This document shows, in pieces, positions 45,250 through 48,587 of a stretch of DNA of 64,000 nt. Position 1 is the first letter of the stretch. Every line of letters begins with the position of its first letter. Source of the stretch: Roseovarius marisflavi (GTDB lineage Bacteria > Pseudomonadota > Alphaproteobacteria > Rhodobacterales > Rhodobacteraceae); NCBI RefSeq assembly GCF_900142625.1, contig NZ_FRBN01000007.1:1-64000 (forward strand), in the 5' to 3' direction. The notes beneath the pieces were generated by a model. That model saw nothing but the letters and a program-made list of their open reading frames with translations, made no database searches and was not told where the DNA came from. Position numbers and translations under genes: made by a program.

Positions 45250-46908
45250 TCAGCGCTGTTGTGTCTGCCAGTTTGGATGCATCCAGGGCTCTGCATTTTC
45301 CGGCGCCAAAGGCGTACGGCCAAGCACGTGGTCGGCGATCTTTTCACCCACCATGATCGAGGGCGCATTGAGATTGCCATTGGTGATGCGCGGGAAAATG
45401 CTGCTATCGGCAACACGCAGGCGCTCGACCCCGATCACCCGGCCCTGCGGATCAACCACCGCGCTCTGGTCGTCAACGCGCCCCATCCGGCAAGTGCCAC
45501 AGGGGTGATAGGCGCTTTCGGCATGCGCGCGGATGAAGTCGTCGATACCGGCCTCGCTGGTCACATCCGCGCCGGGCTGAATTTCATGGCTGACAAAGGG
45601 CTTGAAGGCGTCCTGCGCGAAAATCTCGCGGGTGAGGCGGATGCATTTACGAAAATCAATCCAGTCGCTCTCTTCGCTCATGTAGTTGAAGCGGATCATC
45701 GGCGCATCCGAGGGCTCATTGCTGCGCAGGCTGACCGCCCCGCGCGACGCGCTGCGCATCGGGCCGACATGGGCCTGAAACCCGTGCCCTTCGGCTGCCG
45801 CCTTGCCGTCATAACGCACGGCAATCGGCAGGAAATGAAACTGGATATCGGGATAACTGACGCCCGCATCAGACCGGATAAAGCCGCCGCTTTCGAACTG
45901 ATTGCTCGCCCCCAGGCCCTTGCGCCCCAAAAGCCAGCGCGCGCCGACAAATCCCTTGCCGAAGAGGTTCCAGTATTTGAACAGGCTGACTGGCTGGCTG
46001 GCGGCCATCTGAATGTAAAGCTCAAGGTGATCCTGAAGGTTTTGCCCGACACCGGGGCGGTCGGCCTTGATGGAAATGCCATGCTCCGCCAGATGCGCGC
46101 CCGGACCGACGCCGGACAACATCAAGAGCTTTGGCGAGTTGATCGACGAAGCCGCAAGGATGACCTCGGCCCTTGCGCGCACAACCTCTCGCCGCCCCTT
46201 GCGGAGCGTCTCGACCCCGACCGCGCGGCCCTCTTCAATCACCACGCGGGTCACAAGGGCGCGGATCAGATCGCAATTGTCGCGCTTCAGGGCCGGGCGC
46301 AGATAGGCGTTGGCCGCAGACCAGCGCTGTCCCTGCCAGACGGTCATGTCGAACGGGCCGACGCCCTCTTGCTGCTCGCCATTATAATCGCCGGTGCGCT
46401 GATAGCCGGCCTGCGCGCCGGCCTCGACAAAGGCACGGGTGAGCGGGTTGTCACGCGGCCCCCGGCTGACGTGCAGCGGCCCGTCCGTGCCCCGCCATGC
46501 CGGATCGCCGCCATGCCCGCCGTCATGCCAGCTTTCCATGCGCTTGAAATAGGGCAGCACGTCGGCATAGCCCCAGCCGCCCGCGCCCTGGTCGCGCCAG
46601 TGGTCATAGTCACAGGCATGCCCGCGCACATAAACCATGCCGTTGATGCTCGACGATCCACCAATCACCTTACCGCGCGGACAGGCAAGGCGGCGGTTGC
46701 CGAGATGCGGCTCGGGTTCGCTCTGATAGCCCCAGTCATAGCGCGCCATGTTCATCGGATAGCTCAGCGCGCCGGGCATCTGGATGAAGGGCCCGGCATC
46801 TGTGCCGCCATGCTCGATCACCAGCACCGAATGCCCGGCCTCTGACAGACGGTAGGCCATGGCGCAGCCTGCGCTTCCGGCACCAACGATAACATAATCT
46901 GCTTCCAT
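45250..46908 (-). CDS. betA: choline dehydrogenase
   Basis: 552 residues, a GMC flavoprotein: FAD-binding [51 protein letters not shown] and the C-terminal [13 protein letters not shown] and [21 protein letters not shown] with the catalytic His. It oxidises choline to betaine aldehyde at the membrane. The frame is open to 47016 but crosses a large hairpin; the ATG at 46908 ([13 protein letters not shown]) with AAGGGA upstream is the start. Last gene of betI-betC-betA. Confidence 0.94.
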
Positions 46909-46934
46909 CTCAGAGCGTCCCTTCTGTGCCACAC

Positions 46935-46983
46935 GCCGCCCTGGCGCGACGGGGTGGGTGGGTGGGCGTCGTGCCAGGGCGGC
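46935..46983 (-). promoter_or_regulatory. hairpin with G-quadruplex-type loop upstream of betA
   Basis: 16-base arms (GCCGCCCTGGCGCGAC, 46935-46950, and GTCGTGCCAGGGCGGC, 46968-46983, one mismatch) enclose GGGGTGGGTGGGTGGG (46951-46966) on the plus strand, an ideal G-quadruplex motif. The betA mRNA carries the hairpin with a C-rich loop 27 bases before its start codon. Confidence 0.8.
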
Positions 46984-47046
46984 GGGCCGCCACGAGCGGG
47001 CGGGCAGTGGTTTCAATCCGATAGGTCATTGCACCTGTCTTCGGTT

Positions 47047-47076
47047 GGAGTTTGAGTATTTTCGGAATGGTGAAAG
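47047..47076 (-). repeat. short relative of the dispersed intergenic element
   Basis: Read on the minus strand, CTTTCACCATTCCGAAAATA then CTCAAACTCC resembles the lead part of the element at 54009. It lies 3 bases past the betC stop, in transcript orientation. Confidence 0.5.
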
Positions 47077-47078
47077 GA

Positions 47079-48587
47079 TCATTCATCCCGGGGAAAACGT
47101 TTGTTTTCCTCAAGAACGTTAAGATCCATGTGATTGCGCATGTAGCGTTCGCTGGCCTTTTGCAGGGGCTGATAATCCCAGGGGTAATAGCCGCCCTTGC
47201 GCAGAGCTTCATAGACCACCCAGCGACGCGCCTGGCTTTCGCGCACCGCCGCATCAAAGGCCTCCAGGTCCCACCGTTTTTCGGCCTTGGCCTGAAGCTG
47301 GGCCAACGTACCCACATGGGCCGGATCCCCGGCCAGATTGCAAAGCTCATGCGGATCGGCCTCAAGGTCAAACAGCTGATCGGGATCAAGCGAACAGCGG
47401 TTATACTTCCACTTGCCATAGCGCAGCGAAACCATCGGCGCATAAGAGGCCTCGGCGGCATATTCCATCGCCACCGGTTCGCTGCGCGAGCCCCCCTGCC
47501 CAAGGGCGACAAGCGATTGCCCTTCGGTCCAGGGCATGACATCGGCCATGCTGACACCGGCCAGATCGCAGAGCGTCGGACAGACATCGACATTGCTCAC
47601 CGGATCGGTGACCAGCCCCGGCGCCATGCCGGGCGCCGAAATCATCAGCGGCACCCGCGCCGAGCCCTCGTAAAAGCTCATCTTGAACCAAAGCCCGCGC
47701 TCGCCGAGCATATCGCCGTGATCGCTGACAAACAGGATCACCGCCTCCTGGCGGGTCGTTTCAAGCGCCTCGAGCACCTCACCGATCTTGTCGTCGAGAT
47801 AGCTGATATTGGCGAAATAGGCGCGCCGCGACCGGCGGATATCCTCCTCGGAAATATCAAACGAGCGCCAGTCGTTGGCGTCAAAGATGCGTTTGGCATG
47901 GGGGTCGTGATCCTCATAGGCCATCGCCGGGACCTCGGGCAAAAGATGCTCGCAGTCCTCATAGAGATCCCAGTATTTCTTGCGCGCCACATAGGGGTCA
48001 TGCGGATGCGTAAAGCTGACCGTCAGGCACCAGGGCCGCGCATCCAACCCGCGCGCCAGATCATAGACCTTGGCGCGCGCATGATAAGCGACCTCATCGT
48101 CATATTCCATCTGGTTGGAAATCTCGGCCACACCGGCCCCAGTGACCGAGCCCATGTTGTGATACCACCAATCAATCCGCTCGCCCGGCTTGCGATAATC
48201 CGGGGTCCAGCCGAAATCGGCGGGATAGATATCGGTGGTCAGGCGTTCTTCAAAGCCGTGCATCTGATCGGGGCCGACAAAATGCATCTTGCCCGACAGG
48301 CAGGTCTGATAGCCCGCACGCCGCAGGTGATGGGCATAGGTCGGGATATCGGCGGCGAATTCGGCGGCATTGTCATAGACCCGGCTGCGCGAGGGCAGAA
48401 GACCGGACATGAAGCTGGCGCGCCCCGGCGCACAGAGCGGCGAGGCGGTATAGGCATTGGCAAACCGCGTCGAGCGCGCCGCTAGAGCCTTGAGGTTGGG
48501 CGCATGAAGCCAATCGGCCGGGCCGTCCGGAAACAGAGTGCCGTTCAGCTGATCCACCATGATAATCAGGATGTTGGGGGCGGTCAT
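47079..48587 (-). CDS. betC: choline-sulfatase
   Basis: 502 residues. Type I sulfatase: metal ligands near the start (PNILIIMVDQLNG), the formylglycine site C-A-P-G-R with Cys52 (LCAPGRASFMSG), VSDHGDMLGERGLWFKMS, and a C-terminal SERYMRNHMDLNVLEE typical of choline sulfatases. It hydrolyses choline-O-sulfate to choline and sulfate. Cys52 must be converted by a formylglycine-generating enzyme not in this window. ATGA overlap with betI; betA follows after a hairpin. Confidence 0.94.
   Translation of the reverse strand: MTAPNILIIMVDQLNGTLFPDGPADWLHAPNLKALAARSTRFANAYTASPLCAPGRASFMSGLLPSRSRVYDNAAEFAADIPTYAHHLRRAGYQTCLSGKMHFVGPDQMHGFEERLTTDIYPADFGWTPDYRKPGERIDWWYHNMGSVTGAGVAEISNQMEYDDEVAYHARAKVYDLARGLDARPWCLTVSFTHPHDPYVARKKYWDLYEDCEHLLPEVPAMAYEDHDPHAKRIFDANDWRSFDISEEDIRRSRRAYFANISYLDDKIGEVLEALETTRQEAVILFVSDHGDMLGERGLWFKMSFYEGSARVPLMISAPGMAPGLVTDPVSNVDVCPTLCDLAGVSMADVMPWTEGQSLVALGQGGSRSEPVAMEYAAEASYAPMVSLRYGKWKYNRCSLDPDQLFDLEADPHELCNLAGDPAHVGTLAQLQAKAEKRWDLEAFDAAVRESQARRWVVYEALRKGGYYPWDYQPLQKASERYMRNHMDLNVLEENKRFPRDE

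Follow-up and report, generated by a model that had tools for sequence, protein, structure and literature searches.

REP/BIME palindromes with their RAYT transposases, known from Enterobacteriaceae and Pseudomonas, are dispersed imperfect palindromes located mostly 3' of genes. In the puf mRNA of Rhodobacter, intercistronic hairpins are established as elements protecting segments of the mRNA. G-rich motifs of the (G3T)4 type with single-base linkers are among the most stable intramolecular G-quadruplex designs.

Here, we analysed a 64-kb window (the whole stretch of DNA under study) of Roseovarius marisflavi, in which a hairpin with a putative quadruplex as its loop precedes betA. This hairpin is a member of a family of dispersed intergenic hairpins behind genes of Rhodobacteraceae, which has apparently not been described so far. 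Like REP/BIME elements, the family consists of dispersed extragenic imperfect palindromes mostly 3' of genes, with 122 pattern matches in one genome (G136). Unlike in REP/BIME, however, conservation is seen in the loop, whereas arms are free in sequence, an arm being shared only among part of the G136 copies, and placement is strand-specific. With intrinsic (Rho-independent) terminators the family has in common a GC-rich, stable hairpin closely behind the stop codon, in sense; in contrast to these, most members lack a U-tract, the 15-nt loop is nearly fixed and the pairing constraint apparently lies on the opposite strand. Four G3 tracts with single-base linkers are shared with (G3T)4 motifs (a few members have broken tracts), but here they form the loop on top of a covarying ~18-bp stem, in a family with a preferred position and strand. 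The free stem letters together with the largely kept, quadruplex-prone loop suggest a DNA signal at gene ends.

Results

The window contains an 18-bp inverted repeat at positions 46934-46984, centred on the 15-mer GGGTGGGTGGGTGGG and located between the minus-strand genes betC and betA (Table 1). A preliminary description of the locus had proposed a hairpin with a G-quadruplex loop, arms of 16 bases and one mismatch. This was borne out with arms extending to 18 bp, which at full length leave 25 nt to betA rather than the 27 bases given before. The betA start (ATG at 46908) was read by eye, whereas the list of open reading frames places it further upstream. The gene names betC and betA were likewise appropriate: the upstream choline sulfatase carries a Choline_sulf_C domain and the downstream gene encodes a GMC oxidoreductase. 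The only position without a Watson-Crick pair is G46946/T46972, which is a G·T wobble on the plus (G-rich) strand and corresponds to mismatched A·C in the mRNA.

Table 1. Hairpin and flanking genes in the window.
Feature	Position	Strand	Remark
Left arm of hairpin, 18 bases	46934..46951	+	Sequence and hairpin scan
15-base loop GGGTGGGTGGGTGGG	46952..46966	+	The G-rich plus strand is the template of betC-betA; mRNA loop CCCACCCACCCACCC
Right arm of hairpin, 18 bases	46967..46984	+	Sequence and hairpin scan
betC, choline sulfatase	47079..48587	-	Upstream gene; 94 nt from stop codon to hairpin
betA, choline dehydrogenase, GMC oxidoreductase	45250..46908	-	Downstream of hairpin by 25 nt

Chance is excluded as the origin of this hairpin, since the 15-mer is expected 0.00 times in the window (100 shuffles), folding of the betC-betA spacer RNA gives z = -3.68 with none of 200 shuffles as good, and the hairpin threshold (score of at least 9) is attained by only 34 of 20,000 random positions when these are treated as loops of 15 nt. 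In the scan used, it is the sole hairpin of the window with a loop of 5-26 nt and a stem score of at least 13. A chance G-rich microsatellite was also rejected, as stems at the hairpin threshold were found at none of the 23 tested sites with a one-mismatch G-motif in the same genome (40 listed). The idea that the hairpin controls betA translation received little support, the likely Shine-Dalgarno sequence (AGAAGGGA) falling outside of it. In the predicted fold of window positions 46909-47078 (minus strand), UCCUUUC just 3' of the betC stop codon pairs with GAAGGGA, the likely betA Shine-Dalgarno sequence; in the relative G019 (L007) we read GAAAGGA by eye, with which pairing could persist. Such pairing would be a possible translational control without need of a quadruplex.

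In the genome of the window itself (4.08 Mb), all four exact copies of the 15-mer are loops of long hairpins with unrelated arms. An any-linker search added one site, CCCACCCGCCCACCC, which is also a hairpin loop, and all five exact GGGNGGGNGGGNGGG sites of this genome are hairpin loops, again with unrelated arms. A search of the genus returned 19 copies of the 15-mer in 8 of 84 genomes, each of them a hairpin loop. Of 40 genus genomes searched with a covariance model (search R1), 21 have members at E <= 1, including 18 at E <= 0.001; these counts are lower bounds, with 148 first-look candidates scored per genome. A scan of 84,980 species for a 19-base pattern yielded 108 stretches. Among the 80 listed, 73 have Rhodobacterales names (genera placed partly by general taxonomy), one belongs to an unplaced alphaproteobacterium and six are clearly unrelated. 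The six unrelated loci have stem scores of at most 6 and no comparable stem; three Rhodobacterales sites (the second site of L078, L124, and L126 at a locus end) also score 6 or less. At the loci of R. lutimaris (L082, L086) and R. gaetbuli (L107), the hairpins are identical to those of the two nearest genomes, G019 and G009. Three planctomycete loci (L076, L093, L137) with closely similar surroundings have the pattern without a hairpin and are perhaps a conserved coding stretch.

Across the family Rhodobacteraceae, the pattern CCCRCCCRCCCACCC matches 102 of 394 genomes (393 genera), as counted by the pattern alone. One genome, G117, has 36 matches and none of the reversed pattern (10 forward versus 26 reverse, again by the pattern alone), which may represent a different repeat. 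The looser pattern CCCNCCCNCCCNCCC, applied to 149 genomes, was swamped by poly-C runs; such long runs, which swamp loose G-quadruplex searches, occur in G143, G223, G213, G229 and others of the family. No Rfam family matched the window at the gathering threshold, and the matches around the hairpin were all sub-threshold (E >= 1.1) and all to eukaryotic families, so a known Rfam family was rejected. A phage origin was rejected as well, since viral contigs gave no match to the 19-base pattern (exact pattern only). Among the matches listed, open-licence PMC papers contained no description of such hairpins.

The stems were compared in hairpins found at 97 of 111 distinct pattern sites in the fetched loci. 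This set excludes five non-Rhodobacterales loci (a sixth was out of range), loops with a five-C run, sites near locus ends and arms alike at 17 or more of 20 bases; the hairpin threshold was 9 here and 8 for the G136 set described below. A pairing test with fixed register was failed by 41 of 141 sites, and with a shiftable register by 14 of 111. Alignment A1 comprises 78 hairpins (77 distinct), drawn from the 100 sites that passed the fixed-register test with Watson-Crick pairs at 10 or more of 14 inner positions. In A1, 92.4% of the cells are paired as compared to 54.4% in shuffled alignments, a percentage partly built in because rows were chosen for pairing. Not built in are the changes on both sides, which occur at all 18 pairs. 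The covariation score is 0.900 versus 0.198, and pairing falls to 40-47% when the partner is slid by one base; further pair types are not above the shuffles (51 versus 55.1). The arms are almost free in sequence, apart from the innermost two pairs, which are mostly G-C and C-G.

Stems of family members measure ~18 bp and enclose a loop of 15 nt, as a rule with four G3 tracts and one-base linkers on one strand. The constancy of the loop is partly built in, because the pattern that retrieved most sites prescribes the C tracts and, for the most part, A as the linker. The R1 model search permits other loops; the members it found, in which linkers are not fixed, mostly have four C3 tracts on the C strand with a single A, G or T between them, and a few have broken tracts. 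Natural variants include L233, with a 7-nt loop on the arms of L218, which itself has four tracts, L242 with one broken tract as compared to four whole ones in L241, and L267 with three tracts. In three close species, the loop is identical at 15 of 15 positions at all four sites compared. At one of these sites, 50 of 51 hairpin columns are kept, with only 73/214 and 111/224 flanking positions identical, whereas at the other three the stem is only slightly above the flanks (e.g. 33/36 versus 176/200 and 178/201). For the bet site, this comparison gives 18/27 for stem3, which we read as a gap beside an 18-base stem (nine additional bases in G019), the 18 stem bases agreeing.

G136 is the high-copy case: of its 122 pattern matches (some overlapping), 96 sites were fetched, and 90 of these are hairpins. 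One 5' arm is common to 41 of the 90 at 14 or more of 18 bases (for 31 of these, agreement reaches 17 or 18), and double changes occur between otherwise near-equal copies. A C·C mismatch at position 6 of the stem is common. In 37 of the 90 copies (among loci L309-L390), a second hairpin, short and variable in sequence, begins immediately at the following base; within 40 nt, a second hairpin is present in 43 of 90 (2.8 in shuffled sequence), compared to 8 of 88 other members (1.2 shuffled). This second hairpin could be the terminator itself. With regard to the foot tetranucleotide of REP elements, G136 shows a bias towards A at the base preceding the stem and towards GYCC directly after the stem, where the second hairpin has its foot, while the 97 hairpins show no fixed foot. 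Y1 transposase (PF01797) was found in none of eight high-count genomes of other genera and in 3 of 20 genomes overall, all three from the genus of the window; RAYT/REP membership was rejected, as the enzyme is missing from the eight. In G009, four Y1 (IS200-type) transposase matches have open frames of 152 aa; in the genome of the window there is a single match, which is shorter and located on a different contig.

The placement of the hairpins was assessed with neighbouring genes from a simple codon-usage caller in place of annotation. Read on the C-rich strand, the hairpin lies behind a sense gene at 74 of the 84 sites outside G136 with both neighbours called (binomial p = 3e-13) and at 84 of 90 sites in G136 (p = 1e-18). 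Outside G136 (n = 88), neighbours are co-directional in 53, convergent in 21, divergent in 5 and both reverse in 5 cases, with a neighbour missing in 4; the median distance from stop codon to stem is 8 nt. In G136 (n = 90), the respective numbers are 30, 54, 2 and 4, with a median of 30.5 nt. An earlier tally of mixed sites (120 rows) gave ++ 67, +- 25, -+ 7 and -- 6, with some sites double-counted and hairpin-less sites included. Given the orientation of hairpin and preceding gene, the G-rich strand mostly serves as the template of that gene. The convergent share is 54/84 in G136 as compared to a background of 106/349 in loci of many species, whereas outside G136 a preference for convergent ends was not seen (21/74 versus the same background). 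Many copies reside in likely operons and are no full terminators, because 13 of the 53 co-directional cases leave at most 40 nt to the next called start. Few hairpins are followed by a U-tract: TTTT within 12 nt was found in 2 of 97 compared to 8 of 86 ordinary 3' hairpins (8-nt tails), and TTT in the first 5 nt after the hairpin in 1/90 (G136) and 5/88 (others). A classic terminator with a U-tract was rejected for either strand, T-runs being rare after the hairpin on both. In the survey of neighbouring genes, M20 peptidases account for 6 of 76 upstream and arginase-family genes for 6 of 60 downstream genes, in two lists counted separately; they represent a second recurring site, perhaps as pairs that enclose the hairpin.

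Which strand is under selection can be approached through the mismatches left in the stems. In the 97 hairpins (1874 cells), the C strand shows AC/CA 52, CC 30 and CT/TC 32 times, as opposed to GT/TG 5, GG 6, AG/GA 6 and TT 2. On the G strand, the large classes correspond to G·T, G·G and G·A, the more stable mismatches in DNA. The wobble bias is repeated in G136 (AC/CA 27 versus GT/TG 3), where CC (60) comes mostly from related copies and AG (11) runs in the opposite direction. The opposite wobble is found in 86 motif-less 3' hairpins of the same loci (GT/TG 16, AC/CA 10; Fisher p = 1e-6). Only the wobble part of the bias is distinctive, because these ordinary hairpins share the non-wobble excess of C (CC, CT and TC 21 versus GG, GA and AG 9). 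In predicted stem folding of 156 mismatched hairpins, many of them related and thus not independent G136 copies, the G strand was favoured in 143 (DNA) and 130 (RNA) cases and the C strand in 12 and 10, respectively. With the G-quadruplex term switched on, stem and quadruplex are both retained in the fold predicted for the G strand, at -82.8 versus -45.5 kcal/mol without it (RNA parameters). Since wobble-type mismatches fit the G-rich strand (52) over the mRNA strand (5), it is probably the template/antisense strand that is selected and on which pairing is constrained, although the bias would also be compatible with a mere preference of the mRNA strand for C. The comparable counts of G·T, G·G and G·A weakly favour DNA over RNA. 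The emphasis of the preliminary description on the loop and on the G-rich strand as template was thus well aimed, the loop being the part common to the whole family and the wobble pattern marking the G-rich strand as constrained.

The position before betA deserves separate consideration. BetA accounts for 13 of the 60 surveyed genes that start downstream on the C strand of the hairpin, comprising that of the window and 12 with 74-80% identity to it, one of these from the genus. The 76 upstream genes include 12 aldehyde dehydrogenases and 3 choline sulfatases, in a list counted separately from the downstream one. Within the genus, a spacer comparison as suggested earlier recovers the hairpin at 7 of 22 betA loci; the other 15 have none within 300 nt, and the hairpin is therefore dispensable before betA. 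The condition under which the preliminary description was to be rejected, a missing or unpaired structure in close relatives, did not hold. Close relatives keep it: arms are near-equal at the betA loci of G000, G009 and G019, and G012, G003, G013 and G015 have other arms. Stems upstream of betA also differ between genera. With one genome per genus (89 of 109 betA genomes examined), the hairpin precedes betA in 4 of 89 by criterion, or 5 when G175 with its broken-tract loop is counted, and it was not found in 84 of 89 genera within 330 nt upstream. The betA position is thus old or repeatedly used, but not required. A betC-betA device, as originally envisaged, is too narrow a reading, considering the occurrence of the hairpin behind many other genes, at 7/22 betA loci of the genus and in 5/89 other genera. 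For the same reason, and because no copy was found upstream of betA in most genera, a betA-specific regulator was rejected. PMC12442346 describes betTA and betI1C of Ruegeria pomeroyi as separate units; its main text contains neither the word hairpin nor the word terminator.

Discussion

What could be the function of a hairpin with an almost free stem and a largely constant tip? In the reading that we consider best overall, with a probability of roughly 40%, the dispersed hairpin with its G-quadruplex tip would mark gene ends and impede the polymerase. On the observed side, this reading draws on the family, the covariation, the placement 3' of genes in sense and the strand bias of mismatches. 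The form under selection would be a stem of the G-rich strand with a parallel G-quadruplex as its cap, most likely in DNA that transcription has opened. Stalling of the polymerase is our preferred mechanism: a polar barrier is favoured because a polymerase on its way out of the gene would meet the folded quadruplex hairpin on the template directly after the stop codon. Acting as polar punctuation, the hairpin may halt or slow RNA polymerase right after the gene, and transcription into the next gene (here betA) or a convergent neighbour would be ended or thinned. Where the next start is close, as for betA, the element would be a damper more than a full stop. Against this reading stand the variants that lost the quadruplex but retain their arms, the small share of family genomes that match CCCRCCCRCCCACCC (102 of 394) and the 84 of 89 genera without the element before betA. 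The wider proposal of a lineage-wide, structure-based punctuation, in which a template-strand DNA G-quadruplex on a stem behind genes would form a one-way barrier for RNA polymerase, we put forward rather tentatively. If true, it would be a G-quadruplex system of bacteria in which covarying stems and strand polarity attest to selection.

Three alternatives each explain part of the data. An element of the sense RNA, improbable in our view, fares best among them. Here, the mRNA hairpin with its C-rich loop would protect the 3' end of the upstream cistron, or bind a protein via its CCCA repeats, and thereby set separate levels of mRNA within an operon. The sense placement behind stop codons, the strong predicted RNA stem and the many copies between close co-directional genes (the 13/53 with at most 40 nt to the next called start) are in line with such a role, for which the hairpins of the Rhodobacter puf mRNA offer a precedent. 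Selection on RNA predicts the opposite of the observed wobbles, however, as G·U is nearly absent from the mRNA strand (5 of 1874 cells) and A·C is frequent (52), and C·C, A·C and C·U mismatches destabilise just this strand.

An element of the antisense RNA, unlikely too and ranking second among the alternatives, would account for the wobble pattern by placing the G-rich strand into RNA. Convergent or spurious polymerases arriving from downstream would produce a hairpin with a G-quadruplex tip and be stopped by it shortly before entry into the gene, which would be shielded from antisense transcription. The location at the 3' border of genes, the convergent excess in G136 (54/84) and the quadruplex in the predicted G-strand RNA fold agree with this, as does the G-strand base adjoining the G136 stem on that side, a T in 52 of 90 copies. 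Outside G136, however, the downstream gene is mostly co-directional (53 versus 21), and three consecutive T in the 5 nt that follow the hairpin in the G-strand sequence are found in only 7/90 and 6/88. Moreover, G·G and G·A together (62) exceed G·T (52), which, by the stability orders of mismatches in DNA and RNA, is closer to the pairing preferences of DNA.

Least likely of the three is a selfish or neutral REP-like repeat without host role that spreads to 3' ends and owes its complementary arms to template switching at quasi-palindromes. The 5' arm common to 41 of 90 G136 hairpins and the double changes between near-equal copies there would fit such a repeat, as would the limited occurrence in the family (102/394 genomes) and before betA. 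A Y1 transposase (RAYT) is lacking, however, in all eight highest-count genomes tested (G195 being only 77% complete), the conserved part is the loop and not the arms, and the same four sites are kept in three species, one site with far more divergent flanks. Template switching accounts for neither the strand-specific placement nor the four G3 tracts.

Whether bacterial G-quadruplexes are functional or just G-rich sequence is, in our judgement, a debated point on which the family bears. Its covarying stems, its largely kept quadruplex loop and its fixed strand relative to transcription constitute a natural experiment: within one family, there are genomes with no match, with 5 and with 122, and transcript ends at the copies are comparable with those at stop codons without a copy and at natural variants with a broken loop. 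If the role as a barrier holds true, these hairpins would represent a compact, orientation-dependent stop of transcription for which no U-tract is needed.
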